From: Sphingobacterium pedocola
Lineage (GTDB): Bacteria > Bacteroidota > Bacteroidia > Sphingobacteriales > Sphingobacteriaceae
NCBI RefSeq assembly: GCF_015209965.1
Contig: NZ_MU158690.1
Coordinates: forward strand, 1,254,115 to 1,318,114
Reading direction: 5' to 3'
Length of the DNA: 64,000 nucleotides
This document shows, one piece after another, positions 3,856-25,670 of the stretch. Position 1 is the stretch's first letter. Every line of letters begins with the position of its first letter. The notes beneath the pieces are model-generated. The model searched no databases. It was not told the origin of the DNA and was given only the letters and a program-made list of their open reading frames with translations. The position numbers and the translations under genes were made by a program.

Positions 3856-3939
3856 AGTTAATCCCGTGAAGTTAGGACTTTTAAGTCAATAGGAAAAGAT
3901 ATTTGCCCAACTTATCCTAACATTTATTTTTTGACGACA

Positions 3940-4001
3940 GAATTGCGTAAGAATTGAGTCGCTTCAAAAATTGTTTTCTTTTCTTTTCTCGCCTAATTTA
4001 G
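3940..4001 (+). promoter_or_regulatory. Candidate response-regulator site 1 with -7-like element
   Basis: Two GAATTG half-sites at 3940-3945 and 3951-3956, repeat period 11 bp, are followed 38 nt after the last base by TAATTTAG (3994-4001), close to the Bacteroidota -7 element TAnnTTTG. The peptide gene ATG is at 4029. The same arrangement recurs at four other sites in the window. Confidence 0.7.
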
Positions 4002-4028
4002 GGTAATCAAAATATATATTAAGTGATT

Positions 4029-4241
4029 ATGAAAAAGTATTTAACGGTATTAGCCTGCTGCGTGGCAATTGGTATTGCTCTGAATGTGAGCTTGCAATTT
4101 CAATCGGATAGCAACAAAGCCGGAATTACCTTGGCGAATAACGAGGCCTTGGCACAAGGAGAAAATTCTGGTAAAATATGTGAATCCTTTGGTAGTGTTG
4201 ACTGCCCTCATAGCACTATCAAGGTACTCTACGTACAATGA
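4029..4241 (+). CDS. NVEAL-type small peptide 1
   Basis: 70 residues from the ATG at 4029 (MKKYLTVLACC); a GTG two codons upstream is a less likely start. A basic N-terminus and hydrophobic segment (about 3-20) lead to a leader ending NNEALA, the variant here of NVEAL, then a 28-residue tail QGEN...VLYVQ with two cysteines. The ALA motif before QGE fits a signal peptidase I site (A-x-A), giving a secreted two-cysteine peptide; this is inference. The gene overlaps the next one by 4 nt (ATGA), so the propeller lipoprotein is translationally coupled. It is the most divergent of the peptide leaders in the window. The family has no established function. Confidence 0.82.
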   Translation: MKKYLTVLACCVAIGIALNVSLQFQSDSNKAGITLANNEALAQGENSGKICESFGSVDCPHSTIKVLYVQ

Positions 4242-5278
4242 AAAGAATTTTCGCTGCTGTTTTACTGATGGGGTTGGGGATTACCATGACCTCCTGTAGT
4301 GCTGTTGCAACTGCAGAGGTCGTGGTATTTCCTGAGACCATTTCCCTGCAAGGGAAGAAAAAGACGATGCAGGATAGTGTTTACTTGCGCTACCCTTTTC
4401 GCGTACGGTTGAAAGACGATATCCTTTACGTGATGGATATACATACCGCAGCGCACCATATTCATCTGTTTGACTACAAGATCTTGCAACATAAGGGAAG
4501 CCTGGCACATCGGGGCGAAGCACCGGGAGAATTTCTTGGAACGGAGAATATCCGCATAGACGAACAGGGGGACGTATGGACGCTTGATGCCAATAAAAGT
4601 AAAATTGTTCGGCTTGTGCAACAAGAGGATGAACAGCCGATTGAAATTAATCTAGACAAGAAGCTCGTCCGTACACTGGACTTCGATCGTCTAAACGATT
4701 CGGTTTTTATCGTACCGGACTATACGGGACAGCACCGTATATCGTTTGTTAATTACCATGGTAATATTTTGAAACATGCTTTTCAAATCCCCTCGTCCAA
4801 CGAAAATGAGAATGCTATTGTATCGGCACAGGCCTGGCGGTCGTTCATCAGCTACAACCCGCATCACGGCATTTTGGCCATGGCCACCCAACTGGGACAG
4901 GTGCTAGAAATCTACGATATAAAACAAGATACGATCATTGAGATTGTAGGGCAAGAGTCTGGCGCACCGCAATTTACCAACAGAGGAGGTTATGCGGTAC
5001 CGACAGGCATTATGGGCTATAGCGACATTCACGTAGGGCATGAGCATATTTATGCACTATTCTGGGGGAGTTCATTCGAAGATATACGGAAGCGGCCGGA
5101 CGATCACCGGGAGGGAGGGCGCTATATACACGTGTTCGATCTGAAAGGTAATCCGGTAAGGCAATACGTGCTGGATCGTTACATAACCGGGTTTCATGTG
5201 GATGAGGCTAACAAGAAGTTTATAGCACTGGATGTTAATAGTAACCAGCCTATAATAGAATATGCATTTGGAAACTAA
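4238..5278 (+). CDS. Six-bladed beta-propeller lipoprotein 1
   Basis: 346 residues with a lipoprotein signal (lipobox MTSC, lipidated C20), so it should sit in the inner leaflet or on the surface of the outer membrane. The rest is a repeating beta-sheet pattern of the TolB-like/BF3164-like propeller proteins of Bacteroidota. The family signature in blade 1-2 is HRGEAPGEF (other copies in this window read G-x-G-P-x-E-F/I/V/Y), and the final blade ends FIALDVNSNQPIIEYAF. It overlaps the peptide gene by 4 nt, the only peptide/propeller pair here without an intervening hairpin. A peptide-binding or chaperone role for the partner peptide is inferred from this consistent pairing. Confidence 0.85.
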   Translation: MKRIFAAVLLMGLGITMTSCSAVATAEVVVFPETISLQGKKKTMQDSVYLRYPFRVRLKDDILYVMDIHTAAHHIHLFDYKILQHKGSLAHRGEAPGEFLGTENIRIDEQGDVWTLDANKSKIVRLVQQEDEQPIEINLDKKLVRTLDFDRLNDSVFIVPDYTGQHRISFVNYHGNILKHAFQIPSSNENENAIVSAQAWRSFISYNPHHGILAMATQLGQVLEIYDIKQDTIIEIVGQESGAPQFTNRGGYAVPTGIMGYSDIHVGHEHIYALFWGSSFEDIRKRPDDHREGGRYIHVFDLKGNPVRQYVLDRYITGFHVDEANKKFIALDVNSNQPIIEYAFGN

Positions 5279-5287
5279 AGCTTGTAA

Positions 5288-5349
5288 GAATTGCGTAAGA
5301 ATTGAGTTGGTCAAAAAATCGTAGGACCAGCCGTAAGTCCTTAATTTGG
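5288..5349 (+). promoter_or_regulatory. Candidate response-regulator site 2 with -7-like element
   Basis: GAATTG half-sites at 5288-5293 and 5299-5304 (11-bp period), each preceded by GTAA or CGTAA; TAATTTGG begins 38 nt after the second half-site (5342-5349). The CxxC lipoprotein ATG is 50 nt further on. The site lies only 10 nt past the propeller stop, so a new transcript probably starts here. Confidence 0.7.
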
Positions 5350-5398
5350 TGTCTACTTAGTTAGTTAAGTGTTTTAAAGTTATAAACCTAGTATCGAA

Positions 5399-5953
5399 AT
5401 GAACAGTGTATATAATTATTCGATCGTACTGATGTTATGGATATGTGCTGTCGGTTGTCAAGACAGTAAAAAAGCTACTGCCGAAAAGCTAGTTAGGGAA
5501 TGGATGGGGAAAGAAATTCTTTTTCCGGATGGATTACCCTGTTCCTATATGGGTACGGATACGATCTGCCCGGAATATGCTGATGTTCCGTATAAGGTTT
5601 TAGTGTATACGGATTCGGTTGGCTGCACCAGCTGCAAGTTGAATCTGAATCTATGGAAGCACTATATGGAGGAAATTGATTCTTTAGCCACCGATCAGGT
5701 GCGTTTTCTGTTCTATTTCCAACCGAAGAGCAGAAAAGATCTTGCACATGTGCTAAAACGCGAAAGGCTGTCTCATCCTGTGATAATGGATGATCAAGGC
5801 GCATTGAAGCGAATTAATAGTTTTCCCGAAGGGATGGAATATCAGTGTTTTTTATTGGATCAGGATAACAAGGTGGTGTCCATTGGCAACCCAACCTTAA
5901 ATCCCAAAATATGGGAAGTATATAAACAAGTAATAACGGATAGAAAAAAATAG
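5399..5953 (+). CDS. Thioredoxin-like CxxC lipoprotein
   Basis: 184 residues with a lipoprotein signal (lipobox AVGC, C20). The body contains C76-T-S-C79 in the stretch VYTDSVGCTSCK, following a beta strand, as in thioredoxin folds. Later segments (VRFLFYFQPKS, HPVIMDDQGAL, CFLLDQDNKVVSIGNP) fit the beta-alpha-beta ending of a thioredoxin/TlpA-like domain. It is the only redox-type protein in the cluster. All intact peptide tails have two or four cysteines, so a role in forming or reshuffling their disulfides is a reasonable inference. It has its own copy of the repeated regulatory site upstream and is followed by repeated leader copy 1. Confidence 0.72.
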   Translation: MNSVYNYSIVLMLWICAVGCQDSKKATAEKLVREWMGKEILFPDGLPCSYMGTDTICPEYADVPYKVLVYTDSVGCTSCKLNLNLWKHYMEEIDSLATDQVRFLFYFQPKSRKDLAHVLKRERLSHPVIMDDQGALKRINSFPEGMEYQCFLLDQDNKVVSIGNPTLNPKIWEVYKQVITDRKK

Positions 5954-6150
5954 TAAACATGGGAAAAAGGCGGCAGACTGCACTGCTCTATGAAAGTTGT
6001 AACAGCCTGTCCGTCCGCTATCCCGCCTTAACAAGAAAGGAGGTACGTCGGCAAAGATAATAATTAGTAATGAAATCCAATAATAGGATATACTGTTGAA
6101 ATGATAGATACGGTAAAGCGGTTCTAAAAAATGTCTGCAAACCTAAAAAC

Positions 6151-6183
6151 GCGTCATTGCGAGGCGCGATAGCAACGAAGCAA
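6151..6183. repeat. Short interspersed repeat (GCGTCATTGCGAGG type), copy a
   Basis: The element begins GCGTCATTGCGAGGCGCGAT and ends near CGAAGCAA. It is the common dispersed bacterial repeat with a TCATTGCGAGG...CGAAGCAATC layout. A second copy is at 12565-12600, at the equivalent place in leader copy 2; leader copy 3 has a different short repeat there. Confidence 0.6.
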
Positions 6184-6300
6184 CCGAACGTAGTGAGCTC
6201 ATGAATGCTTATGAGGACAGACACTGATGAATAATCTGCGTTTTCGATGTCACCAGATTATCTTTTAGATACTACCAAGAATTAAAATAGTATAAATGAT

Positions 6301-6316
6301 GAGCTCGCAAAAGCTC
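6301..6316 (+). promoter_or_regulatory. Conserved small hairpin upstream of NVEAL peptide 2
   Basis: GAGCT-CGCAAA-AGCTC can form a 5-bp stem about 50 nt before the peptide ATG. Equivalent hairpins stand at 12663-12678 and 15067-15082 with changed loops and matched or wobble stem changes. Confidence 0.5.
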
Positions 6317-6367
6317 GATAAAAAGCTTATCATCAATATTGATGGTGAAAGTTAAAAAATCAATATC

Positions 6368-6598
6368 ATGAAAAAGAAAATTTTAGGAAGTATAGCAGTA
6401 ATTGCTATTGCGGCAGTAGCTGCTTTTAATGTTCACGTTAATATGAACGAAGATAATGTTATGTCAGCGCTAAGTTTAGCGAATGTAGAAGCTTTGGCGG
6501 ATGGAGAGGCAGATATGGGGGTAACTTGTGATGGATCTGGATCCATTACTTGTCCTCTAAATCAAAGTCAAGTTAGGAAAGTAGTTATTTGGGGGTAA
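6368..6598 (+). CDS. NVEAL-type small peptide 2
   Basis: 76 residues starting MKKKILGSIAVIAIAAVAA, a basic start plus hydrophobic segment (5-20). A short polar linker and the family motif SLANVEALADGE (36-47) follow, then a tail of about 30 residues with two cysteines ending VVIWG. The NVEAL family (about 65-90 residues, Bacteroidota) has no known function. A-L-A at 42-44 would suit cleavage by signal peptidase I, though it is further from the hydrophobic core than usual. The leader is nearly identical to peptides 4 and 5 while the tails differ, the pattern of a conserved export leader with a variable cargo. Confidence 0.87.
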   Translation: MKKKILGSIAVIAIAAVAAFNVHVNMNEDNVMSALSLANVEALADGEADMGVTCDGSGSITCPLNQSQVRKVVIWG

Positions 6599-6602
6599 TA
6601 TT

Positions 6603-6670
6603 ACGGGAAAAGAAGTCTTGCCAAATTAATTAAATGGTAGGGCTTCTTTCTTTTTAACCCGTGATTTTTT
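6603..6670 (+). terminator. Intercistronic hairpin after NVEAL peptide 2 (attenuator-like)
   Basis: Nested arms ACGGG (6603-6607) with CCCGT, and AAAGAAG with CTTCTTT, enclose TGCCA/TGGTA. A T-rich run follows (GATTTTTTT, to 6670). It lies 5 nt past the peptide stop and 19 nt before the propeller start, so it could cut transcription between the two. Confidence 0.5.
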
Positions 6671-6688
6671 TAATTAATTTAGTGTGAT

Positions 6689-7708
6689 ATGAAAATATTA
6701 TTGTTATGCTCTTGTTTTATCCTGTTCGTATTGGGATGCGATCATCGAGGGGATAAGAAGTCATACTCTTTCAACGAAATTGGAAGTATATCTACAGTAA
6801 ATGTGCCAACGGATGACTCTGTATTTATGCGGTATCCATTCCGTCTCGCCAAAAATGATTCTTTACTGTTTATCTTAGATTTGCATGCTCCAGATCATTT
6901 TATCCATGTTTTTTCGGAAAAGGAATTAAAATATCACAGTTCTTTGTGCGCAAAGGGTGATGGACCGAATGAGTTTATCTCCATCAACAACATTCAGTTA
7001 GTAGGGGATTCACTATATGTATATGAATCCAGAAACGAGATTTGGGTGTATCAGGTGGATGATATCTATCAAAAAAAAGAAACCCCAAAAAGGATCACAT
7101 TAACTAAAGATTTTGGCTTTTTATCGAGAGGATTAAAATTAGGAAACAGATTCTATTTTCCGGTATTTAATGTGACAAATGATGGACGAATTCTTGAGTT
7201 TGACAATCAAGGTAATTTCGTACGGTCTTTAGGTAGCATAGAAGCGTCAGATAGTAAAGATCTTCTAGAGTCATCCGCTTATCATCAGGCATGGATGCCT
7301 TTTTTGGGAGGTTCCGAAGATATTCTTGTTGCCGCTACCCAATTTGGTGATGTTTTGGATATTTTCGATGAAGGTGAGCAATTGACAATCAAAGGTAAGT
7401 ATGGAGATCCCGTGTTCAGGACACATAAGGGGTATGCTATCCATGAAGGAATACACGGCTTTCAGGATATAATCGCGAATAATGGTTTTTTATTGGCACT
7501 TTTCAGTGGCGTAGATGTCAAAAATGAGGATCTTGATAAAGACGGAGCCGATAATCTTTACATATGGAATTACAAAGGAAAACCTTTAAAACATATTAAA
7601 TTAGATAGACGTTTTGTGTCCATATATCCAGATACCGACGGCTCATTTTTAGCTCTGGATATCAATTCGGATAATCCGCTTTATCGTCTCAGTATACCGG
7701 ACTTGTAA
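6689..7708 (+). CDS. Six-bladed beta-propeller lipoprotein 2
   Basis: 339 residues with lipobox VLGC (C17) after MKILLLCSCFILF. The family signature reads CAKGDGPNEF, and the final blade ends FLALDINSDNPLYRLSIPDL, closely resembling propeller 1 (both also share the early segment VFMRYPFR or VYLRYPFR). It follows peptide 2 across a hairpin. Regularly spaced beta-strand segments run the whole length and no catalytic motif is evident, so a binding function is likelier than an enzymatic one. Confidence 0.85.
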   Translation: MKILLLCSCFILFVLGCDHRGDKKSYSFNEIGSISTVNVPTDDSVFMRYPFRLAKNDSLLFILDLHAPDHFIHVFSEKELKYHSSLCAKGDGPNEFISINNIQLVGDSLYVYESRNEIWVYQVDDIYQKKETPKRITLTKDFGFLSRGLKLGNRFYFPVFNVTNDGRILEFDNQGNFVRSLGSIEASDSKDLLESSAYHQAWMPFLGGSEDILVAATQFGDVLDIFDEGEQLTIKGKYGDPVFRTHKGYAIHEGIHGFQDIIANNGFLLALFSGVDVKNEDLDKDGADNLYIWNYKGKPLKHIKLDRRFVSIYPDTDGSFLALDINSDNPLYRLSIPDL

Positions 7709-7719
7709 GCTTAATATCC

Positions 7720-7951
7720 TTGAAAAATACTGCCGCGCTTGTTATTTGCTATCGCAGCGATAGCTACGTTTAATGTTCATGTTAATATGAACGAAGGTAA
7801 TGTTATGTCAGCTCTAAGTTTAGCGAATGTAGCAGCGTTGGCGGATGGTGAGAATGGAGGCGGAGTAAATTGCTCCAATAGTTGTTCCGGCGCATATTGT
7901 GGAACATTTATTCCCCCTTCTGGGCCTGGTGTAAAATTATATTATTGTTAA
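7720..7951 (+). pseudogene. Decayed NVEAL-type peptide 3
   Basis: From about 7742 the sequence encodes LFAIAAIATFNVHVNMNEGN and then SLANVAALADGE and a four-cysteine tail ending KLYYC at 7951, clearly the family. The start is damaged: the expected ATGAAAAA is TTGAAAAA at 7720, and that frame is one base out of register with the rest, running into a stop at GTTTAA. In the correct frame only a TTG at 7739 is available, which would remove the basic N-terminus. It also lacks the leader repeat and regulatory site found before the other intact copies, and sits 30 nt behind the propeller 2 stop. The intact tail suggests recent decay. Expression from an unusual start cannot be excluded. Confidence 0.65.
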
Positions 7952-7966
7952 GCAAATTTAAAACCT

Positions 7967-8004
7967 GTAGTCGTCTCTTGCGTTTCAGAAAGAGGCGGCT
8001 ATAC
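7967..8004 (+). terminator. Intercistronic hairpin after peptide 3
   Basis: GTAGTCGTCTCTT pairs with AAGAGGCGGCTAT (with G-U pairs) around a short loop and is followed by a weak T-rich stretch (CTTTCTTAT). It occupies the same position, between peptide and propeller, as the hairpins at 6603, 12936 and 15355. Confidence 0.5.
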
Positions 8005-8077
8005 TTTCTTATAAAGAAGATTGATGTCCAAAGAGTTGTTTTATAAAGACACGCAACTTCTGAAATTTATACGAACT

Positions 8078-9121
8078 ATGAATAATCTACTATACCTTAA
8101 AATCTGTTTAGTTACAATTATTTTTTTTCTTTCTTGCAATAAGCAAACTGAGAATACGCAGAAAATACTTGAGAACGCCAAGCTTCTTCATACGAATGAA
8201 ATTGACGTTGATTTTTTATTGGGTAGACCCAATCAAATAACAATTGGTGACAACAGATTAGTTATCACTGATAATATAGATGAAAAAGCACTCGCGTTTT
8301 ATGATATCAAGTCCGGTACTTTTATCGGGAGGCGGATCGGCATTGGACAAGGCCCAAATGAGGTAATCCCTCCACTATTATTGCCAAGATCAAGTGAAAG
8401 CGAGGTCCTATCCATCATACAGAGGCAAAACGGCCGATATACAGAACACAATATTCCGAATCTTGCAAAGGAGAATTTTGTTCCAAATAGATCCTTAGAG
8501 TTTGAAAATATAGATAGATTGACTCAAACGAACAGCGGCTTTATCGTTTCGGGACCTTATGAAGAGGGGTCCATTAGAATACTTGATCGCGTAGGAGGCA
8601 TCATCAAAAGCCAAAATATTTATCCACATTATATCAATGACCTGAACCAACCTGCAGATAGATATGTCTATGGACAAGGGCATATAGCCTACAATAGGAA
8701 AAATGACGTGCTGGCATTTGCTTCTTATTTTACAGGAGAGGCTTCCTTTTACAAACTTGTGGGGGATTCTCTAGAAATTCTTAAAAATTTTGATTTTAGT
8801 TTGCCTTCTGAATTGCGTAATCGCATTGCGCATTCAACTGGATCTGCATCATTAAAAGATTCGGACATGGAGTATTTTTCAGATATCTATTCTACGTCAA
8901 ACCATTTTTATCTTTTGTATACCGGTATTGCTATGAAGGACAAAAACTCGGCTTCAAATAGCTATATTTTTAAATTTTCGAAAGAAGGACAATTGCTTGA
9001 TACCTACAAAACCGATAAGAAAATTATCTCTTTCTGTGTACAAGATGATGATAGTAAGGGATATGGGGTTGCTCTTTCTGAGGATATGGATTATATTTTG
9101 GTTGAGATGATGAATATATAA
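8078..9121 (+). CDS. Six-bladed beta-propeller lipoprotein 3 (BF3164-like)
   Basis: 347 residues from the ATG at 8078, chosen because MNNLLYLKICLVTIIFFLSC is a proper lipoprotein signal (C20); upstream starts at 8021 and 8024 would bury it. The signature is GIGQGPNEV at about residue 92. The middle (TSGFIVSGPYEEGSIRILD) and end (YGVALSEDMDYILVEM) resemble the BF3164-like lipoprotein family more than propellers 1 and 2. It follows the decayed peptide 3 and precedes the nonsense-interrupted propeller 4. Confidence 0.82.
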   Translation: MNNLLYLKICLVTIIFFLSCNKQTENTQKILENAKLLHTNEIDVDFLLGRPNQITIGDNRLVITDNIDEKALAFYDIKSGTFIGRRIGIGQGPNEVIPPLLLPRSSESEVLSIIQRQNGRYTEHNIPNLAKENFVPNRSLEFENIDRLTQTNSGFIVSGPYEEGSIRILDRVGGIIKSQNIYPHYINDLNQPADRYVYGQGHIAYNRKNDVLAFASYFTGEASFYKLVGDSLEILKNFDFSLPSELRNRIAHSTGSASLKDSDMEYFSDIYSTSNHFYLLYTGIAMKDKNSASNSYIFKFSKEGQLLDTYKTDKKIISFCVQDDDSKGYGVALSEDMDYILVEMMNI

Positions 9122-9180
9122 TCTTCCCGTAGCTCTCTTTATGGTCCGCAAGTAAAAAATATATAAATAAAAAAGCGAGC

Positions 9181-10299
9181 ATGAGAATTATACTATATAT
9201 TCTATTTATAACGGTCTTGGTTTCCTGTAAAAAGAGGTCAGCTAATAATACACAAAAACTGAGAACGTTAAATCTAGATTTTGTTGATTTAAAAGGAAAC
9301 AATTTAGATTGTGACTCCCTTATAGCTTCGAACAAGATTGTTGCCTATTTCAACGGTCATGTTGTAACCCGTCAACTTTAGGATTATTTTTTCACAGTCT
9401 ACAGGTTAGGTGAAAATTCTGAGGACATAAAGTTTGTAGGGAAGTTTGGCAAGAGAGGAAATGGACCCAGAGAGTTTTTTGGTGTTCCCCAATTACATTA
9501 CAAAAAGCAAAATAATGCCTTGTACGTTTTCGACATTCAGGGAGGTAATCATATCAATGCATATCAAATTGATCTGTTTTCATTGAACAATATTTTCGAT
9601 GAAAGCACTTGGAAGTCTATTGCTTTTCCCGTATTTGAGCATGCAACATTTTCGTCGTTCGTTCCATTAACAGACTCTATATTCCTGGCCATGGGTGGAG
9701 ATTACGATAGAATCAATTTATTATCTATCGTACAGGCAGGAAATAAGGAATATAAGGCTTTAGATATGGACTATCCAAAAGATGGTATAAAAGCCGAAGC
9801 CATTGTGAAAAGAGGTGTATATAACTATGGTGGTATATTGATGCACCCTTCAACAAATAAATTGGTATACTATTGTACCAATTGGGGTAATTATGCTGAA
9901 ATCATCGATAATAAAAATTTTAAATTTTCGACATTTCAGGTAATGACCGCTGATTATCCTATTTACAAAGTGGCTAAAGATGGTATGAATATGGAATCGG
10001 AGAATAACACCTTGATGGGAATGCGGGCACAGAGTTCGGAACAGTATATCTACCTTCTCCCAAACTTTCACAATAAGGAAGCATATCTCAAAGACGACCC
10101 TAACCGGATATATCCAACTGATCATCTTGACAAAGTATATGTATATGACTGGGAGGGAAATTCCGTGAAAGCCTATAAATTGGATAAGCCAGTAACGGAG
10201 TTTGTTGTCGACCCAGGCGATACGTATTTATTGGGATCTAGTGTGGATACGGAAAGTGGTGATATTGTTTTTGTTAGGTTTGATCTCACAACTATATAA
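9181..10299 (+). pseudogene. Six-bladed beta-propeller lipoprotein 4, interrupted by an in-frame TAG
   Basis: A lipoprotein signal (MRIILYILFITVLVSC, C16) opens a frame that meets TAG at 9379-9381 after 66 codons. The same frame then continues without another stop to 10299. The continuation includes the family signature KRGNGPREF just past the TAG and a normal final blade. A single change of CAG (Gln) to TAG explains everything; there is no frameshift. Read through, the product would be 371 residues counting only sense codons, the family length. It may be a recent nonsense mutation, a strain-level off switch, or a sequencing error. The next gene begins 4 nt after the final stop. Confidence 0.8.
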
Positions 10300-10303
10300 A
10301 TTT

Positions 10304-12280
10304 ATGAATCGTAATATCTTTTTTTTGCGTGTAATCGGAATAATAATCATCGGCACATTTTTTTCTTGTCATACAAAGTCGGGTGATGACCTTAATAGTG
10401 CGTTAGAGGCTGCCGGAGCGAACAGAAGCACCTTAGAAACTGTTTTGGGACACTATAAAGGACAAGGAGATGAAGAAAAAGTTCAGGCGGCCAAATATCT
10501 AATCTCGAATATGGCGACCAAATTGAGCATCGTGAATAGATCAAACAGATCTTACTTTGAAATATTTGACGTTATTGATTCACTATGGGCCTTCGGAAAT
10601 GCTGCCATTATCGACAATAGAAAGGAACTCGAGTCTCGCTGGGATTCACTGGTAAAACGTCATGGCGCTCCTCAGATAAGAGATGTTGACAAAGAGAAAG
10701 ATATAAACATAATGACTGCCGACCAATTGATTTCCCATATTGATCACGCTTTTGATATGTGGCGAAAAAATAAGTGGAGCAGAAATGTAGATTTTGAAAG
10801 CTTCTGTAAGCATATACTTCCTTACAAGGTAGGTACAGAACCAAATGAATTATGGTCAGTTAGACTTTATAATCTTTGGCGTGATACGCTAAAAGAAAAT
10901 AACATCGATAGCATATTAAATATTGCAAAGTTCATCAATGATCATAATGCGTACAAAATGTCGCATATGCGTATTCTCTGGTCCTATCCCTATGACTTTT
11001 GCAGCAGCGAATTCGAAAGGATTCGTTTGGGAAGCTGCAAGCACGGGGTACATTATACCACTCAAAGTCTCCGGGCATTGGGAATTCCCACAGCAATTGA
11101 CTTTACAAGAAGATGGGCTGGTGCCAAAAATGGACACGAGTGGAATGTTGTTTTTTTAGAAGATGGTACGCCATACCCATTTGACGCCATTAACAAAGGA
11201 TTGAAAATCGATCTTTCATGGAGAAAAATTGCTAAAGTCTATCGTAAAACCTATGCGAATCAGAAGTTGAATGTCGATTTTTCACACATAGCCGAGATTC
11301 CGTCAGAACTATTGGATATTAATAGTATTGATGTAACTAATGAATATGTGTCGACAAAGGATGTTGCGTTAACTATTGATAATAAGGAGCGTAACAAGTA
11401 TGCCGTAATTTCGACTTACAGTGGGTTTGACTGGATACCTCAAACTTGGACAGAAATTTCCGGAGGCAAGGTTGTATTCAAAGAAATGGGGGTCGGAAAT
11501 CTATATTCGGTCTTTCTATTCAACGGTATAGACTACATTAGAAAAACAGAGCCATTTCTTTTGGATAGCGTAGGAGGTATAACGTATTTCAAACCCAGTT
11601 CTTCTAAAGAGAATATCCGGCTGGAAAGGAAGGCACAATTAACGCCTTTTATGGAGGACATTATGTCGTTTATTGTAAATAATAAATTTCAGGGCGCAAA
11701 TACGAGAAATTTTCAGGATTCGGTAACGTTGTTTACGATTGAAGAAACGCCTAAGAAAATCGAAAGTGCCGATATCCATATGGAAAAGGCATTTAGATAT
11801 GTTAGAATGTGGATACCCAGAGGTGGTAGAGGAGATATTGCAGAAATGGAGTTCTATGGTCTGGCTAAAAATGGACAGGACACCGTTAAATTAAGCGGTA
11901 CCATTATCGGCGATCCGAAAGTTAACATTGAAGGGAAAAGACACTATTTGTATCCTTTTGATGGCGATTTATTGACGTATTTTCTAAAACCAAGAGGAGT
12001 AGATCCCTGGGTGGGTCTGGATTTCGGCTCACCGCAGAAGATTGTGAAAATTCGTTATTGTCCGCGCAGCGATACTAATTTTATTGAGATTGGAGATGAA
12101 TATGAACTTTTCTATTGGGCTAATGGAGGATGGAAAAGCTTGGGAAGACAGAAAGCTCAGGATCAGTACTTAATCTACAAGAATGTTCCCAAGAATTGCA
12201 TATTTATCTTAGAGAATAAAAGCAAAGGCGTTGAACACAAAATTTTCATTTACGAAGATGGCGCTCAAATTTGGATGTGA
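10304..12280 (+). CDS. Transglutaminase-like lipoprotein 1 with C-terminal discoidin-like region
   Basis: 658 residues from the ATG at 10304, which gives a lipoprotein signal (MNRNIFFLRVIGIIIIGTFFSC, C22). The transglutaminase-like core has the expected triad: C245 in LGSCKHGVHYT, H278 in NGHEWNVV and D294 in YPFDAINKG. The C-terminal 170 residues (RYVRMWIPRGGRGDIAEMEFYG, then YLIYKNVPKNCIFILENKS) look like an F5/8-type C or discoidin-like beta-sandwich. Such proteins may act as proteases, amide-forming enzymes or inactive binders, and the sequence does not decide which. It is paralogous to 16547-18493. Its place after peptide and propeller genes suggests that it acts on the peptides or on a shared surface ligand. 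Confidence 0.8.
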   Translation: MNRNIFFLRVIGIIIIGTFFSCHTKSGDDLNSALEAAGANRSTLETVLGHYKGQGDEEKVQAAKYLISNMATKLSIVNRSNRSYFEIFDVIDSLWAFGNAAIIDNRKELESRWDSLVKRHGAPQIRDVDKEKDINIMTADQLISHIDHAFDMWRKNKWSRNVDFESFCKHILPYKVGTEPNELWSVRLYNLWRDTLKENNIDSILNIAKFINDHNAYKMSHMRILWSYPYDFCSSEFERIRLGSCKHGVHYTTQSLRALGIPTAIDFTRRWAGAKNGHEWNVVFLEDGTPYPFDAINKGLKIDLSWRKIAKVYRKTYANQKLNVDFSHIAEIPSELLDINSIDVTNEYVSTKDVALTIDNKERNKYAVISTYSGFDWIPQTWTEISGGKVVFKEMGVGNLYSVFLFNGIDYIRKTEPFLLDSVGGITYFKPSSSKENIRLERKAQLTPFMEDIMSFIVNNKFQGANTRNFQDSVTLFTIEETPKKIESADIHMEKAFRYVRMWIPRGGRGDIAEMEFYGLAKNGQDTVKLSGTIIGDPKVNIEGKRHYLYPFDGDLLTYFLKPRGVDPWVGLDFGSPQKIVKIRYCPRSDTNFIEIGDEYELFYWANGGWKSLGRQKAQDQYLIYKNVPKNCIFILENKSKGVEHKIFIYEDGAQIWM

Positions 12281-12314
12281 TTCCACTTAACCAATACAAC
12301 CGGAGGGTTTGTAA

Positions 12315-12376
12315 GAATTGCGTAAGAATGGAACAGGTTGCTTATTCTATGAAAGTGACTTTAATTATTAGCTTTA
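12315..12376 (+). promoter_or_regulatory. Candidate response-regulator site 3 with -7-like element
   Basis: Half-sites GAATTG (12315-12320) and GAATGG (12326-12331, one mismatch), 11-bp period; TAGCTTTA starts 38 nt after the second (12369-12376). It lies 35 nt past the transglutaminase stop and ~320 nt before the peptide 4 ATG, so the transcript would carry leader copy 2. Confidence 0.68.
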
Positions 12377-12564
12377 AATAAAAGTTTTAACTGGGAAAAA
12401 GGCGGCAGGCTGCACTGCTCTATGAAAGTTGTAACAGCCTGTCCGCCCGCTATCCCGCCTTAACAAGAAAGGAGGTACGTCGGCAAAGATAATAATTGAA
12501 GGATACACTGTTGAAATGATAGATACGGTAAAGCGGTTCTAAAAATGTCTGAAAACCTAAAAAC

Positions 12565-12600
12565 GCGTCATTGCGAGGCGCGATAGCAACGACGCAATCT
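12565..12600. repeat. Short interspersed repeat (GCGTCATTGCGAGG type), copy b
   Basis: Begins GCGTCATTGCGAGGCGCGAT and ends CGACGCAATCT; second copy of the element at 6151-6183, in the matching place of the leader repeat. Confidence 0.6.
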
Positions 12601-12662
12601 GCGTTTTCGATGTCACCAGGTTATCTTTTAGATACTACCAAGAATTAAAATAGTATAAATAC

Positions 12663-12678
12663 GAGCTTGCATAAGTTC
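12663..12678 (+). promoter_or_regulatory. Conserved small hairpin upstream of NVEAL peptide 4
   Basis: GAGCTT-GCAT-AAGTTC forms a 6-bp stem with one G-U pair, about 20 nt before the ATG at 12697. It is the equivalent of 6301-6316 and 15067-15082. Confidence 0.5.
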
Positions 12679-12696
12679 AAACAAAAACTCAAAAAA

Positions 12697-12930
12697 ATGA
12701 AAAAGAAAATTTTAGGAAGTTTAGCAGTAGTTGCTGTTGCGATAGTAGCTGCATCTAATGTTCACGTTAATATGAAGGAGAATAATGGTTTGTCTGCTCT
12801 TAGTTTAGCAAATGTAGAAGCTTTGGCTGATGGAGAAGGGAGTGTGGGGATTCCTTGTACAGCTCCGAAAAAACATGGAGTTTGCCTTGATTTGACCGAT
12901 GTGCAATGTACAGATAACTTCGGCTGTTAA
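12697..12930 (+). CDS. NVEAL-type small peptide 4
   Basis: 77 residues from the ATG at 12697 (MKKKILGSLAVVAVAIVAA), preferred over a TTG 30 nt upstream because it matches the start of peptides 2 and 5. The leader ends SLANVEALADGE. The tail GSVGIPCTAPKK...NFGC holds four cysteines, the last being the final residue, as in peptide 3. Signal peptidase cleavage after ALA would leave a peptide of about 33 residues with four cysteines (inference). Confidence 0.86.
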   Translation: MKKKILGSLAVVAVAIVAASNVHVNMKENNGLSALSLANVEALADGEGSVGIPCTAPKKHGVCLDLTDVQCTDNFGC

Positions 12931-12935
12931 ATACT

Positions 12936-12987
12936 AAAAATTAACATGCTTCACTGTTCATGGAGATAGTGTAGTATGTTAATTTTT
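12936..12987 (+). terminator. Intercistronic hairpin after NVEAL peptide 4
   Basis: AAAAATTAACATGCT (12936-12950) pairs with AGTATGTTAATTTTT (12973-12987), 15 bp with one G-U pair, plus an inner CACT/AGTG stem. It ends in a T run. It starts 5 nt after the peptide stop and ends before the propeller start, the layout of a partial terminator. Confidence 0.6.
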
Positions 12988-13020
12988 AATTCACTTAAAA
13001 TGTTTGTTTACAGAAATTTA

Positions 13021-14142
13021 ATGAAATATTACTATTATTTATTAATCGTTATTATCGCTCGGATTATATCGTCGTGCAATAATAATACCGACAAGAATCT
13101 AATGTCAGAGTTGTCTGTGGATACAATCATTTGGGACGATTTTGACATACGGGATGGTAAGACTTTCTTCCCCGAAGAGCTTGTTAAAACTAGAAGGTAT
13201 GTGAAACTTGATTCTACTCCTACTTTTATTTTTGGTGGTGGAGATAAAATAATTACGCGAAATAATATTTATGTATTGGATATGCGGCAAAAGAAAATTA
13301 TTATTTTCGACGATCAGGGGGCTGGATTGCTCGTACTCCATCGGGTAGGACAAGGGCCACAAGAATATCTCCAAATAACAGATTTTGATGTAGACGATAA
13401 CGGTAATATCTATATTGTCGATGGCGCTAGCGACAAACTCATTGTCTATGATCAGAATGGAAGTTTTGTTTCCGCAACTAAGTTTTCTTTTGAGGCGGAT
13501 CTTATCCATCGTTTAGGTAACGGGAACTTTCTGTTTGGATTATCAGCATGGAACAAGGATGTTCAGACGCGAGGTAATCGGTTTGCTATCGTCGGAGAAG
13601 ATATGCAGATTCATAGCTCTTTTGTAGCTTTTGACGATTACCAAGATAATATGTATTGGATTTCATCCTACAGGTTTATAAAGGCCTCAAATAAAATTTG
13701 CTATAACAAACCAATTGATGACTATGTCTATATAATGTCGAATATGGGACTTTTAGTGCAAGCTTTTTATTTTGATTTTGGAGATGCAAGAATTCCCTTT
13801 GATTGGAGAAAAGATGTGGAATCTAACATCGATAGGATCAAGGAAAAATATAGGTGTCTAAAAAATCATGTCGTGGTCACAGATAAGTACATAATAGGTA
13901 CGCTGTGGGATCGAACCGAGACAAAACCCTTCTTAGTGGACCTGGGGCAAAAGAAAACATATATAGGAGGGACAGTTGCGGAGAGCGATGTCAGTGACTT
14001 TTTAGATTTTACAGATAATAGTGTCGTGTCACTTCTATCGACTGGTAAGGACGATATGTTTGATCTACTAGACGTGCCCAAAGATGTCCAGGCGCATGTT
14101 GCACAGGAAAATTTCGCGTTGATGGTAACGGAACTTTTGTAA
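13021..14142 (+). CDS. Six-bladed beta-propeller lipoprotein 5
   Basis: 373 residues from the ATG at 13021 (MKYYYYLLIVIIARIISSC, C19); further starts at 13000 and 12976 are possible but lengthen the signal. The signature RVGQGPQEYLQITDFDVDD is followed by NIYIVDGASDKLIVYDQNG, typical of blade 2, and several similar strand-turn repeats follow. It differs clearly from propellers 1-2 and belongs to the longer 6-bladed type. Its stop overlaps by one base the ATG of the truncated propeller 6 (TAATG). Confidence 0.82.
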   Translation: MKYYYYLLIVIIARIISSCNNNTDKNLMSELSVDTIIWDDFDIRDGKTFFPEELVKTRRYVKLDSTPTFIFGGGDKIITRNNIYVLDMRQKKIIIFDDQGAGLLVLHRVGQGPQEYLQITDFDVDDNGNIYIVDGASDKLIVYDQNGSFVSATKFSFEADLIHRLGNGNFLFGLSAWNKDVQTRGNRFAIVGEDMQIHSSFVAFDDYQDNMYWISSYRFIKASNKICYNKPIDDYVYIMSNMGLLVQAFYFDFGDARIPFDWRKDVESNIDRIKEKYRCLKNHVVVTDKYIIGTLWDRTETKPFLVDLGQKKTYIGGTVAESDVSDFLDFTDNSVVSLLSTGKDDMFDLLDVPKDVQAHVAQENFALMVTELL

Positions 14143-14457
14143 TGAAAAAAAAAATATAGGGAAAGCACTTTATGTTTTAATGCTTTTAAGCATCTGGGGG
14201 TGTAATGATCGCTCGTATTCGGAAATACAGCAATATAAACGGGATAAAATTACTCATGCAAAAGCCGACTTACAAGAAATACAAATAGAGGATGCGCTTA
14301 TTGGCAGTATTGCTCGTCTATATATTATCGATGACTATGTCTTGATAGTGGATCATAAATCTGCAGATAAGCTGATACATATATTTAATAAAGATAATTT
14401 CAACTATGTGACAAGTATCGCTGATATTGGACAAGGTCCTGGGGAAATAACGGTGAT
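14142..14457 (+). pseudogene. Truncated, frameshifted copy of propeller 7 (propeller 6 remnant)
   Basis: About 316 nt are nearly identical to the first 320 nt of the gene at 15428. Two defects are visible. The start reads ATG, then ten A, then TATAG, where the intact gene has four A, T, nine A: four bases fewer, shifting the frame into an immediate stop. And the match ends abruptly at CGGTGAT (14457), after the signature GQGPGEI. Only scattered substitutions separate the copies, so the duplication is recent. It probably arose when the peptide-propeller unit duplicated. Confidence 0.85.
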
Positions 14458-14489
14458 TAACTTTTCGAACTGCCAATATTTTCCTTGTA

Positions 14490-14750
14490 ATGAAATATGA
14501 ATATCTTTCAGCTTTATCGACGCAACCATGGTTCCGATTGTTATATGTAAGTATAGTTGTGGCTATTGTGACCTTTCTATCGAATTGTTCAAAATTGAAC
14601 ATACTATCTTTTCCTCATTGCAATCACTATAAGGATCAACGTAAATTTTGCTATATCAGATTTGTCCCGAACAATTGCAAAGGTTGGCCATTGTGTAAAT
14701 CTCTTATAAAATTATCGAAGGTGGACACGAAGAACATAAGTTTGATGTAA
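14490..14750 (+). CDS. Uncertain 86-residue frame with lipobox-like N-terminus
   Basis: The frame begins MKYEYLSALS and contains a hydrophobic stretch ending FLSNC (cysteine 33), which resembles a lipoprotein signal. The rest is cysteine-rich and matches no family I recognise. It sits in the debris between the truncated propeller 6 and regulatory site 4, and its stop TAA is the first part of the repeat there. It may be a scrambled remnant of a lipoprotein gene instead of a working one. Confidence 0.2.
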   Translation: MKYEYLSALSTQPWFRLLYVSIVVAIVTFLSNCSKLNILSFPHCNHYKDQRKFCYIRFVPNNCKGWPLCKSLIKLSKVDTKNISLM

Positions 14751-14812
14751 GAATTGCGTAAGAATTGAGTAGTCAATTTCTTTTACGAAAGTAATCTGTA
14801 TTGCTAGCTTTA
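14751..14812 (+). promoter_or_regulatory. Candidate response-regulator site 4 with -7-like element
   Basis: GAATTG half-sites at 14751-14756 and 14762-14767 (11-bp period), then TAGCTTTA exactly 38 nt on (14805-14812). Sites 3 and 4 share the same -7-like sequence and similar downstream bases (AAAAGTTTTAA), consistent with duplication of promoter plus leader. Confidence 0.7.
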
Positions 14813-15010
14813 GATTAAAAGTTTTAATCGGGACAAATAAGGCGGCAGACTGCACTGCTCTATGAAAGTTGTAACAGCCTGTCCGCCCGCTATCCCGCCT
14901 TAACAAGAAAGGAGGTACGTCGGCAAAGGTAATAATTAGCAATGAAATCCAATAACAGGATATACTGTTGAAAGGATAGATACAGTAGGAAGGCGCGTAA
15001 TATCGCTTTT

Positions 15011-15037
15011 TTGTCATCCCGACGAAAGGAGGGATCT
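15011..15037. repeat. Short interspersed repeat (GTCATCCCGA...GGAGGGATCT type), copy a
   Basis: TTGTCATCCCGACGAAAGGA followed by GGGATCT, a dispersed repeat common in Bacteroidota and other bacteria. A shorter relative is at 30336-30357. It disrupts leader copy 3 relative to copies 1 and 2. Confidence 0.55.
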
Positions 15038-15066
15038 AAAAAATATACTAAGTCAATAGTAAATAG

Positions 15067-15082
15067 GAGCTTGTTGAAGCTC
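15067..15082 (+). promoter_or_regulatory. Conserved small hairpin upstream of NVEAL peptide 5
   Basis: GAGCTT-GTTG-AAGCTC, a perfect 6-bp stem, 20 nt before the peptide ATG. Third member of the hairpin set at 6301 and 12663. Confidence 0.5.
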
Positions 15083-15101
15083 GATTAAAAAAAATAATAT
15101 C

Positions 15102-15323
15102 ATGAGAAAAAAAATTTTAGGAAGTTTAGCAGTAATTGCTATTGCGGCAGTAGCAACGTTTAATGTGACTATCGGCACTCCCAATAGCGCCACAGCTACA
15201 ATTAGTCTATCTAATGTGGAAGCGCTGGCAGATGGAGAAAATCCGAATTGTCCTAATGGCTGTAAGGCTAATGGGGACGGTTGCTTTTGTAATTACTGGT
15301 TTCCTACGGACCGGGAAGCATAA
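15102..15323 (+). CDS. NVEAL-type small peptide 5
   Basis: 73 residues starting MRKKILGSLAVIAIAAVAT, almost the same leader as peptides 2 and 4, with a different linker (IGTPNSATATI) and the motif SLSNVEALADGE. The tail has four cysteines within 13 residues (NCPNGCKANGDGCFC) and ends DREA. The tight cysteine spacing would suit a knotted or two-disulfide peptide. A strong hairpin terminator follows before the propeller gene. Confidence 0.87.
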   Translation: MRKKILGSLAVIAIAAVATFNVTIGTPNSATATISLSNVEALADGENPNCPNGCKANGDGCFCNYWFPTDREA

Positions 15324-15354
15324 TAATGACGAGTAATTGTTAAATTAGAATTGT

Positions 15355-15411
15355 AAGGAGGGTGTGTTGCGGACATATGCATATTTTATGTCACGAACAC
15401 CCTCCTTTTTT
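15355..15411 (+). terminator. Terminator-like hairpin after NVEAL peptide 5
   Basis: AAGGAGGGTGT (15355-15365) pairs perfectly with ACACCCTCCTT (15397-15407), with an inner GACAT/ATGTC stem, followed by a T run to 15411. This is the clearest intrinsic terminator of the four peptide/propeller spacers, yet the propeller 7 gene has no promoter site of its own that I recognise. It may act as a partial terminator. Confidence 0.75.
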
Positions 15412-15427
15412 ACGATAAAATAGCACT

Positions 15428-16447
15428 ATGAAAATAAAAAAAAATATAGGGAAAGCACTTTATGTTTTAATGCTTTTAAGCATCTGGGGGTGTAATGATC
15501 GCTCGGATTCGGAAATACATCAGTATAAACGGGATAAAATTACTCATGCAAAAGCCGACTTACAAGAAATACAAATAGAGGATGCGCTTATTGGCAGTAT
15601 TGCTCGTCTATATATTATCGATGACTATGTCTTGATAGTGGATCATAAATCTGCAGATAAGCTGATACATATATTTAATAAAGATAATTTCAACTATGTG
15701 ACAAGTATCGCTGATATTGGACAAGGTCCTGGGGAAATAACGGTGATAGGGCATATTGAAGAAGACAAAAAAGACCGGGCATTTCTTGTTTCCGATCATG
15801 GAAAACAAAAGATATTTAGTTATAACCTGGATAGTGCATTGACGGTACCATCTTATATGCCTAAGGAAAGGGTGAGAATGGATAAGTCTCAATTTCCACA
15901 TGTATATAAATTTATAAATGACTCTTTATCAGTTGGGTTGTTTATTAAACCAATAGGGACCAATGATTTCGCACAGTCGGTGGCTAAATGGAATATGCAA
16001 ACAGGTGGTATCGAGACGTTAAGTCAGGAGCATCCTAAAATAAAAAGAAAACGAATTAGCTTTGCAGTTTCTGAAAATAACGGATTATTTGTAGAATGCT
16101 ACGCTTATGACGATTTGATGACGATTTATGGACTAGATGGAAATATTAAATTTAATATATATGGCCCGAATTGGGGGAGTGGGACTTCCTCTAAAACCCC
16201 ATATTATAGAAAGGTAGCGTTTTGTGGAGAACACATTTTAGCAACTTATTTTGACGACGACGATTCGGAAGAAAGGGATATTCCAACTAAATTTCTTGTA
16301 TTCGACTTAGATGGTAATTATATCAAAACGATAGAAACGGATCATCAAATTGCTGACTTCTGTTTCGATGAAAGCAACAATAGAATTGTCATGAATTTAG
16401 ATAGCGAGATACAATTTGCCTATTTGAATCTAGATGGACTAATTTAG
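15428..16447 (+). CDS. Six-bladed beta-propeller lipoprotein 7
   Basis: 339 residues with lipobox SIWGC (C22). The signature is DIGQGPGEI at about residue 100, and the last blade (FCFDESNNRIVMNLDSEIQFAYLNL) completes the propeller. The first third is nearly identical to the truncated copy at 14142-14457. The poly-A run in codons 4-6 (nine A) is intact here and shortened there. It is followed after 99 nt by the second transglutaminase-like gene. Confidence 0.84.
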   Translation: MKIKKNIGKALYVLMLLSIWGCNDRSDSEIHQYKRDKITHAKADLQEIQIEDALIGSIARLYIIDDYVLIVDHKSADKLIHIFNKDNFNYVTSIADIGQGPGEITVIGHIEEDKKDRAFLVSDHGKQKIFSYNLDSALTVPSYMPKERVRMDKSQFPHVYKFINDSLSVGLFIKPIGTNDFAQSVAKWNMQTGGIETLSQEHPKIKRKRISFAVSENNGLFVECYAYDDLMTIYGLDGNIKFNIYGPNWGSGTSSKTPYYRKVAFCGEHILATYFDDDDSEERDIPTKFLVFDLDGNYIKTIETDHQIADFCFDESNNRIVMNLDSEIQFAYLNLDGLI

Positions 16448-16546
16448 ATTCTAAGTCACTGTGTGAATCCATTCAAATATTTCCTGTTCGAATTCAAGTA
16501 CATTGTGGTCAAAGGTGCACTTTTACGTTTTATATTCTCCTCGGTT

Positions 16547-18493
16547 ATGAAAAATGATTTTATTCAACGAAAACTTGTTGTTAAAACTGTAATCTATAGT
16601 TGGGTAATGCTATGTAGTGTTATTATACAGTCATGCGATCCCGAAACGAAAAAAATAAATCGTGTCATGACGTTAGCCGGTGCTAACGGGCGAGAATTAC
16701 AAAAGGCACTGGACTATTATGCCGGTGATAAAGAAAAATCAGAAGCAGCAAAATACGTAATAGAAAATATAGTGGGTCATCAGCACGTGGATGATCTATC
16801 TTACCAAGCCTATGTCAGGAAATTGAAACAAATGGATAATCCAATTTCCACCGATTCTTTAAATAATTTATGGAAGGGCTCTTCTATTAGCTACGCGGTT
16901 GATGCGCAGACCATTACAGGAGATTACTTAATACAAGATTTGGAAGCGGCATTTCGAATCAGAACTTTGGTTCCTTGGGGCTCATCTATTTCTCTACAGA
17001 CGTTTAAAGAATATGTGTTACCGTATAAAGTTAGTAATGAGGCTTTGGCTCCCGGTTGGCGCACAGAACTCTATGAGCGATATAAACATCTTGTCATAGG
17101 GATTAATGATCCAAAAGTAGCGTATGTGAAAGTATTGCGGTATCTGAAAGAAATTACCAGGGAAGCAAATTCTAATTTTGGCTACACTATAGACCCGTTA
17201 ACGATGGATCACATTAAACGAGGCTCATGTTCTCAATTGTGTGTCTATTATGCTGCTGTATTACGCGCTTTTTCTTTACCCGTAGCCTATGATTATATTG
17301 ATGGATGGGGGAATTATAGTCAAAGTGGACATAGCTGGATATCTTTTGTAGACAACACAGACAATGTGTATACCCTCGCAACTAGGGATTCCGTGCTTCG
17401 TGAACGAAATCCTATTGACGCATCAACGTTCAAAGAACATTTCGATCCGAATAGTAAAAATTTTAATATTAGTAGCGCAAAAACAGTCTATAAAGTATAT
17501 CGTAATACCTATCAGTTAGTTGAACAAAAGGGATTATCCATAGGGAATACCAATTTTGGACATAAACTTGACGTATCGGAGCGCTACGGCTTGTTGGGGA
17601 GTGTTAAGCTTGAAGCCAAGGGATCTGATTATGTCACACTGTCTGTTTTTAAAACCGGAGATGACTGGAAAGAATTTGTCATTTCGAAAGTTAATCAAAA
17701 TCGTTCGTCATTCGAGCATTTGGGAGTAAATGTGGTTTACTTGCCCTCATACTATAGCAATGGAAAGCTTAGAAATATAGGTACTCCGTTTTATATAGAT
17801 AGTGACAATAATGTAGTGTATGTAAAAGCACATAAAAAAAAGCTGCAAAACATAGTTTTACGTAGAAAATATCCTCTTTTCGGAAACTGGACTGCGCAAT
17901 GGAATCGCATGATTGGAGGTGAGATTCAGGTTTCAGATAATGCAAAATTTGATAAGCCGAAGCGCATTCACATCATAGAAAGCATACCCATAGGTAGGCT
18001 AGGTTTTAAACTCGAAAAGCCGTCCGAAATAAAATATATTCGATATGTGTGCCCACCCGAATGCAGAACACCAATTGCAGAATTTAATTTACATGATTTA
18101 AATGCTAATAAAATAGTAGTCGAAAGTGCCATCGGGCAAGATGTTGATAAAGATCAGCTACATTTTGCTTTCGATGGTAATGACCTGACTTCAGCGGCAA
18201 CAAAAAGAGAAAAATTTTGGATAGGGGCGAAACTTAAAAAGAACGAAGGAATTCTCATTGATAGTATTGAAATTATACCCAAGCATGACGGGAATTTCAT
18301 TCAAGAAAATGATATATACGAGTTATATTATTTTGATGGAAGCTGGATCTCGTTAGGGACGCGGACAGCTAAGGATCGTGTGTTAATATATTCGGATGTG
18401 CCTGAAGGCGCTCTATTTGTTCTTCGTAATAAAAGTAGAGGTAAAGAGGAGCGGATTTTTACTTATGACGATGGCAAGCAATTGTGGTGGTGA
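16547..18493 (+). CDS. Transglutaminase-like lipoprotein 2 with C-terminal discoidin-like region
   Basis: 648 residues from the ATG at 16547, which gives a lipoprotein signal ending VIIQSC (C30); an upstream in-frame start at 16463 would place it internally. The core has C228 in RGSCSQLCVYYA and H262 in SGHSWISF. The acidic third residue is less obvious than in the paralogue at 10304. Both share the N-terminal LAGANRxxL-like helix region and a C-terminal sandwich ending LRNKSRGKEERIFTYDDGKQLWW. The two proteins are diverged duplicates of one another and each closes a peptide-propeller block. Confidence 0.8.
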   Translation: MKNDFIQRKLVVKTVIYSWVMLCSVIIQSCDPETKKINRVMTLAGANGRELQKALDYYAGDKEKSEAAKYVIENIVGHQHVDDLSYQAYVRKLKQMDNPISTDSLNNLWKGSSISYAVDAQTITGDYLIQDLEAAFRIRTLVPWGSSISLQTFKEYVLPYKVSNEALAPGWRTELYERYKHLVIGINDPKVAYVKVLRYLKEITREANSNFGYTIDPLTMDHIKRGSCSQLCVYYAAVLRAFSLPVAYDYIDGWGNYSQSGHSWISFVDNTDNVYTLATRDSVLRERNPIDASTFKEHFDPNSKNFNISSAKTVYKVYRNTYQLVEQKGLSIGNTNFGHKLDVSERYGLLGSVKLEAKGSDYVTLSVFKTGDDWKEFVISKVNQNRSSFEHLGVNVVYLPSYYSNGKLRNIGTPFYIDSDNNVVYVKAHKKKLQNIVLRRKYPLFGNWTAQWNRMIGGEIQVSDNAKFDKPKRIHIIESIPIGRLGFKLEKPSEIKYIRYVCPPECRTPIAEFNLHDLNANKIVVESAIGQDVDKDQLHFAFDGNDLTSAATKREKFWIGAKLKKNEGILIDSIEIIPKHDGNFIQENDIYELYYFDGSWISLGTRTAKDRVLIYSDVPEGALFVLRNKSRGKEERIFTYDDGKQLWW

Positions 18494-18531
18494 TTTTTTA
18501 AGATCTTAATACAGTTTCTTTTCGGAAGCAA

Positions 18532-18593
18532 GAATTGCGTAAGAATTGAGTAGCCCGTTTCTTCTTTGATTTGGCTCAACTTTATTTTATTTG
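18532..18593 (+). promoter_or_regulatory. Candidate response-regulator site 5 upstream of the peptidase/export operon
   Basis: GAATTG half-sites at 18532-18537 and 18543-18548 (11-bp period). The downstream promoter element is less clear: TATTTTAT (18583) or TATTTGAA (18588) lie 35 or 40 nt away, against 38 at the other sites. The next gene starts at 18677 and opens an uninterrupted run to 30322. Confidence 0.6.
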
Positions 18594-25665: not shown

Positions 25666-25670
25666 TTATT

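Follow-up and report, generated by a model that had tools for sequence, protein, structure and literature searches.

The direct repeat and the genes around it

The window analyzed here, a stretch of 64,000 nucleotides (nt) from Sphingobacterium pedocola (assembly GCF_015209965.1, contig NZ_MU158690.1, positions 1,254,115 to 1,318,114 of the forward strand), carries a gene cluster for NVEALA peptides, lipoproteins and export functions in which a short direct repeat, hereafter the box, recurs. A pattern scan of the window detected GAATTGCGTAAGAATTG exactly at 3940, 5288, 14751 and 18532 and with one mismatch at 12315, precisely where the initial annotation had placed five copies. Beyond these sites, no other match with up to three mismatches was found in the window, and shuffled sequence yielded a mean of 0.33 and a maximum of 2 copies versus the 5 observed.

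Box 1 (3936..3959; core 3940-3956) is located in the divergent intergenic region between a sensor histidine kinase gene (2497..3855, minus strand) and pepA (4029..4241), which encodes an NVEALA peptide (PF14055; alignment) with the end C..xGS[VLI]DCPxSxxKVxY. pepA is followed by the gene of its partner, a TolB-like six-blade propeller lipoprotein (4238..5278; PF15869, E = 8e-81). Box 2 (5284..5307; core 5288-5304) lies upstream of the gene for a CxxC lipoprotein that is thioredoxin-like by a weak match (5399..5953), and a further NVEALA gene is found at 6368..6598 (PF14055, E = 1.6e-12). Box 3 (12311..12334; core 12315-12331, with the single mismatch) and box 4 (14747..14770; core 14751-14767) precede the NVEALA genes 12694..12930 and 15102..15323, respectively. 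Box 5 (18528..18551; core 18532-18548) is upstream of a signal peptidase I gene (S26; 18677..19540), the first gene after it, which is followed by genes for a Wzy_C/TPR membrane protein (19537..21459) and by HlyD, RND, TolC-like and RND genes (21476..30322; the RND and TolC names were given by inspection). These last genes lie close to the preceding ones and are grouped with them as the export operon. All of these features except the kinase gene are on the plus strand. Five peptides of the window pass the gathering cutoff of PF14055, above 27 bits.

Next to the kinase gene, on the same strand, a response regulator is encoded (1796..2473). Both of its Pfam domains score over the cutoff, Response_reg (PF00072, E = 6.6e-20) and Trans_reg_C (PF00486, E = 3.7e-12), and this combination of a receiver with a C-terminal winged helix assigns it to the OmpR/PhoB class, as anticipated for the neighbor of copy 1. 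Its best-scoring named family is RprY of Bacteroidetes (NCBIfam NF051850), yet with 132 bits against an equivalog cutoff of 370 bits it falls far short, and it was not accepted as an RprY equivalog. The kinase, identified by Pfam and a 12-sequence alignment, contains a periplasmic sensor domain (residues 28-196; 3268-3774 in the window) whose structure was modeled with fair confidence (pTM 0.72). This domain had no Pfam family match and no PDB fold match at E <= 0.001, and the fold search with the full-length kinase matched the kinase core only.

Gapless alignment of the five copies revealed a common block, G.AAGAATTGCGTAAGAATTGAGT, which adds 4 bases to the 5' side of the 17-mer and 3 to its 3' side. 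The conserved part thus covers approximately 23 bp. Outside it, pairwise identity drops to 17-50%, which is near chance; the exception is the paralogous sequence that follows copies 3 and 4. In its most fitting reading, the block consists of G[TC]nAGAATTG units repeated in tandem every 11 bp: each box comprises two AGAATTG half-sites in the same orientation, 11 bp, or one helical turn, apart.

The Bacteroidota sigma-A -7 box is TAnnTTTG at positions -12 to -5 (PMC9723704). Starting at the 38th base after the second half-site, copies 1 to 5 carry the -7-like elements TAATTTAG (3994..4001), TAATTTGG (5342..5349), TAGCTTTA (12369..12376), TAGCTTTA (14805..14812) and TTTATTTG (18586..18593), all on the plus strand. 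A TAnnTTT-type box at this distance had been proposed for four copies. The offset held, but the strict motif is present in copies 3 and 4 only, copies 1 and 2 having TAnTTT; moreover, the fifth copy, which had been left out, has TTTATTTG at the same offset. Matched to TAnnTTTG, all five copies agree at 5 of 6 positions at one identical offset, a result reached in 0 of 20,000 Markov shuffles. When the paralogous copy 3 was removed, the corresponding four-of-four result was likewise obtained in 0 of 20,000. If the -7 box spans -12 to -5, the 17-bp core would lie at about -66 to -50, and transcription would be expected to start near 4006, 5354, 12381, 14817 and 18598; these start sites are predictions from the sequence.

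Distribution of the box and of its putative regulators

A scan of the entire genome (5.23 Mb in 8 contigs) for GAATTGCGTAAGAATTG used the reversed pattern as a control. At up to three mismatches, 22 sites were found with the pattern and 22 with the control. At up to one mismatch, there were five sites, every one of them in the window, and the sole site with two mismatches lies within a coding sequence. Genome-wide, there was no excess of boxes outside the cluster. A genome-wide regulon was therefore rejected, and the many promoter-unrelated copies that would have spoken against a function of the repeat were not found. Half-sites separated by a free 5-base spacer (up to two mismatches) were not above chance; therefore, the specific spacer matters.

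Within the genus, orthologs of the kinase, full or cut by a contig end, are present in 7 of 94 genomes, S. pedocola included. All seven contain GAATTGMGNMAGAATTG and together hold 23 of its 26 sites, while only 3 of the 87 kinase-less genomes have it (Fisher P = 1.2e-8, with the relatedness of the genomes uncorrected). The reversed control had no match in the 94 genomes. Two of the kinase-less carriers (G006 and G043) contain relics, and in the third (G053) the site is inside a coding sequence. The relic boxes (L073, 4709; L074, 4338) remain where the cassette was lost: they resemble boxes of intact loci in standing where a TlpA-like gene, or what is left of it, ends, but the downstream operon is gone.

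The putative promoter geometry is also retained in the genus. A 5/6 match to TAnnTTTG at the identical offset (37) was detected for 27 of 29 boxes, and none has a full match. After boxes with similar spacers were dropped, 11 of 12 shared the offset, compared to a shuffle maximum of 4. The genus boxes precede pepA, other NVEALA genes, and the genes for signal peptidase I, Wzy-like proteins, CxxC lipoproteins and transglutaminase-like lipoproteins. These operon classes are kept behind the boxes even where the operons are split differently. Such conservation in orthologous loci supports the suggestion of the initial annotation that peptides, the CxxC lipoprotein and the export operon would form one regulon.

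A class-level search for the kinase recovered, past its own genome, paralogous kinase domains only. The kinase also occurs in two Parapedobacter species, P. defluvii and P. koreensis, in a further genus of the family, and outside the family in Parabacteroides sp. Marseille-P3160 and in Paludibacter, Proteiniphilum and other Bacteroidia metagenome-assembled genomes; the named loci are 41-60% identical. In 12 of 12 further loci with adjoining kinase and pepA genes, which range from Sphingobacterium to these genera and four of which are outside the family, a box is located divergently upstream of this conserved NVEALA gene. The repeat between the two genes has 0 to 3 mismatches in the distant loci, and some contain three or four 11-bp units. 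In the literature, ArcA sites with several direct repeats at 11 bp are known, and OmpR and PhoB sites can likewise hold multiple repeats (PMC3798270).

A more distant genome of the class, G471, was reached by a search with the model of an RNA leader (see below) and contains the same cassette with another regulator. Here, pepA and the propeller gene are divergent from a gene whose product has membrane segments and carries Trans_reg_C (PF00486, E = 2e-7) at its C terminus; this one protein stands in place of the two-component pair. Comparison of this protein with the kinase family by hhalign was not significant (21.7% probability). The operons of G471 are preceded by a different 11-bp repeat, AATGTGACG; AATGTGACGCAAATGTGACG occurs in 7 copies at up to one mismatch (reversed control, 0), and TATGTTTG starts 31 nt (six copies) or 32 nt (one copy) after the repeat. 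The -7 element of G471 is a full consensus. Thus, half-site and regulator appear to have changed together, with the repeat period and position kept, a pattern that is firm in G471 only. The membrane regulator adjoining pepA in G504 and the regulator of G727 are homologs (26% identity, E = 6e-26). In G504, TGGAAACATT occurs three times in the intergenic region between pepA and the regulator gene, with an 11-bp distance between two of the copies. The G727 regulator, which likewise takes the place of the two-component pair, has a Trans_reg_C domain just under the cutoff; an AATGACA repeat beside it lies in very AT-rich DNA and was not counted as evidence. Elsewhere in G471 (contig C3, 726552-726991; L145-L150), an array with an 84-bp period holds six near-copies of the repeat, e.g., TTTGTGACGCAAATGTGACG, but no -7 box, and may represent a minisatellite or serve as a decoy.

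A candidate operator of the adjacent response regulator

We consider it very probable that the boxes serve as operators at which the neighboring OmpR/PhoB-type response regulator would bind as a dimer and activate the promoters of the cluster. According to this model, the phosphorylated regulator would occupy the box in a head-to-tail arrangement, at about -66 to -50, and activate a sigma-A promoter with a -7 element that misses the consensus by one base. Copy 1 would serve pepA, copy 2 the CxxC lipoprotein gene and the genes following it, copies 3 and 4 the two NVEALA operons, and copy 5 the export operon with its signal peptidase I, Wzy and RND genes. These operons are predicted to fire together once the kinase senses its signal. 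With the box as docking site of the adjacent regulator, the cluster would thus work as one switchable unit.

The box is a mechanistically known kind of element. The initial annotation had pointed to direct repeats of about 11 bp as the target form of OmpR/PhoB regulators, and the ArcA, OmpR and PhoB repeats agree with this (PMC3798270). Like PhoB and ArcA boxes, the boxes described here have head-to-tail half-sites with an 11-bp center distance and sometimes three to five tandem units, they lie near putative promoters, and the regulator predicted to bind them is composed of Response_reg and Trans_reg_C. Unlike those boxes, they have AGAATTG as half-site and are followed at a strictly constant distance by a -7 element of the Bacteroidota type, and the regulon is local to one cluster and not global.

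Binding by another transcription factor, encoded elsewhere, to boxes that merely travel with the cassette is improbable in our view. Co-inheritance of the cassette would by itself produce the same co-occurrence of kinase and box, and binding by the adjacent regulator is a prediction. However, the 11-bp tandem repeat is typical for the OmpR/PhoB class, 84 of the 87 kinase-less genus genomes lack the box, and the half-site differs where the regulator was replaced. The direct repeat is probably an operator that is both real and conserved, and no other candidate binder comes close in likelihood to the adjacent regulator, because this is the only recognized DNA-binding protein adjoining the box in the compact loci that were read and because of the swap in G471. 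Somewhat less improbable, but still unlikely, is that the boxes are repressor operators or that the regulator both represses and activates: the direction of regulation is not readable from sequence, and the full-consensus -7 element of G471 runs counter to an argument for activation from imperfect -7 elements. The position at about -66 to -50, the rigid spacing and the -7 element that never reaches 6/6 in the genus nonetheless fit an activator.

The copies could also be a by-product of segmental duplication, since the cluster is partly duplicated and copies 3 and 4 share downstream sequence. As a full explanation, this is refuted by the near-chance flanks of copies 1, 2 and 5, which contrast with the nearly invariant 23-bp block; together with the retention of boxes in other genera, it leaves duplication a very slim chance. 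Even less credible are chance repeats or a dispersed repetitive element, in favor of which nothing was found and which the shuffles and the genome scan, with no further copy at up to one mismatch, refute.

Several observations weigh against activation by the adjacent regulator. The -7-like sequence is shifted or weak in Parabacteroides and in some Parapedobacter copies, the box of Proteiniphilum, the most distant one, deviates at three positions, and 2 of the 29 genus boxes, one decayed and one in a relic locus, have no element at offset 37. Furthermore, when a whole cassette is inherited together, this alone does not tell which protein binds, and the regulator swap is one firm case, since G471 is the sole genome with enough copies. 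Finally, the boxes, their half-sites, the fixed spacing, the domain content and the co-inheritance are direct sequence observations, and the binding and expression side of the model, including activation, operon extents and start sites, is predicted from them.

The regulon defined by the box appears to be undescribed in the literature searched, which did not cover most subscription papers; under the same limit, no paper naming NVEALA was found, and a paper on the mining of ribosomally synthesized and posttranslationally modified peptides in Bacteroidales does not mention the propellers. NVEALA peptides and propeller lipoproteins have Pfam families, and here they are tied to a putative dedicated regulator, operator, promoter geometry and export operon. 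Experiments could start from mutation of the operator, deletion of the sensor or addition of the candidate signal peptide, and the joint change of half-site and regulator may help to learn how OmpR/PhoB-type domains read DNA in Bacteroidota.

pepA, the RNA leader and other features of the cluster

The end of pepA is conserved, with small variations, in an alignment of 13 loci. In the genus, strong pepA matches were found beside the kinase only, and a related pepA is likewise located next to a membrane regulator in G471, G504 and G727. Because of this conservation and recurrent adjacency, we tentatively propose a role of pepA in sensing: the peptide might be the signal detected by the adjacent sensor, in which case the box would close a positive feedback loop. 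The cluster might then represent a form of peptide communication in Bacteroidota in which the sensor is interchangeable (two-component pair or membrane one-component protein), the peptide end C..xGS[VLI]DC is kept, and the output consists of NVEALA peptides and their dedicated export.

The agr and com/blp loci of Firmicutes are peptide-pheromone two-component systems. The cluster resembles them in having a small exported-peptide gene beside a membrane sensor and a regulator that is predicted to control peptide and export genes. It differs in belonging to a Gram-negative phylum and in its NVEALA leader and propeller lipoproteins, and peptide sensing is here a proposal. ToxR/CadC-type one-component regulators are membrane bound and have their DNA-binding domain at the N terminus. 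The G471 and G727 regulators share with them the membrane segments, an extracytoplasmic part and Trans_reg_C (just under the cutoff in G727), but their DNA-binding domain is at the C terminus and they are encoded divergently from an NVEALA peptide. An A-x-A-like signal peptidase site at the end of NVEALA, together with the regulon's own signal peptidase I (18677-19540), suggests dedicated processing of these peptides.

Upstream of several NVEALA genes, we detected a structured RNA leader of approximately 155 nt, present in the window at 5961..6115, 12393..12529 (a shorter copy) and 14830..14986, all on the plus strand. Further copies are found at other loci (L041, L043, L044, L045, L069, L083, L086, L088, L133 and L134), and a model built from 10 sequences recovered copies in loci outside its building set. 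Covariation was above that of all 500 shuffles, with 58 double-change cells versus a shuffle mean of 19. The leader is present in only 6 of the 94 genus genomes, all of which have the kinase and pepA. An Rfam search gave no family at the gathering threshold and one chance-level match (E = 9), and the leader is apparently undescribed.

Two large lipoproteins are encoded on the plus strand between the boxes. The first (10304..12280) is transglutaminase-like by inspection and has an F5/8-like part just under the cutoff; the second (16541..18493) had no Pfam hit and is similar to the first by inspection. A 300-bp duplication with 99% identity is present at 14146-14445 and 15436-15735, and a truncated propeller gene (14180-14500) lies upstream of box 4. 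Another propeller gene appears to be split within 9181-10299 into a lipoprotein start of 66 amino acids (9181-9381) and a TolB_like fragment from 9520, and is probably a broken gene.

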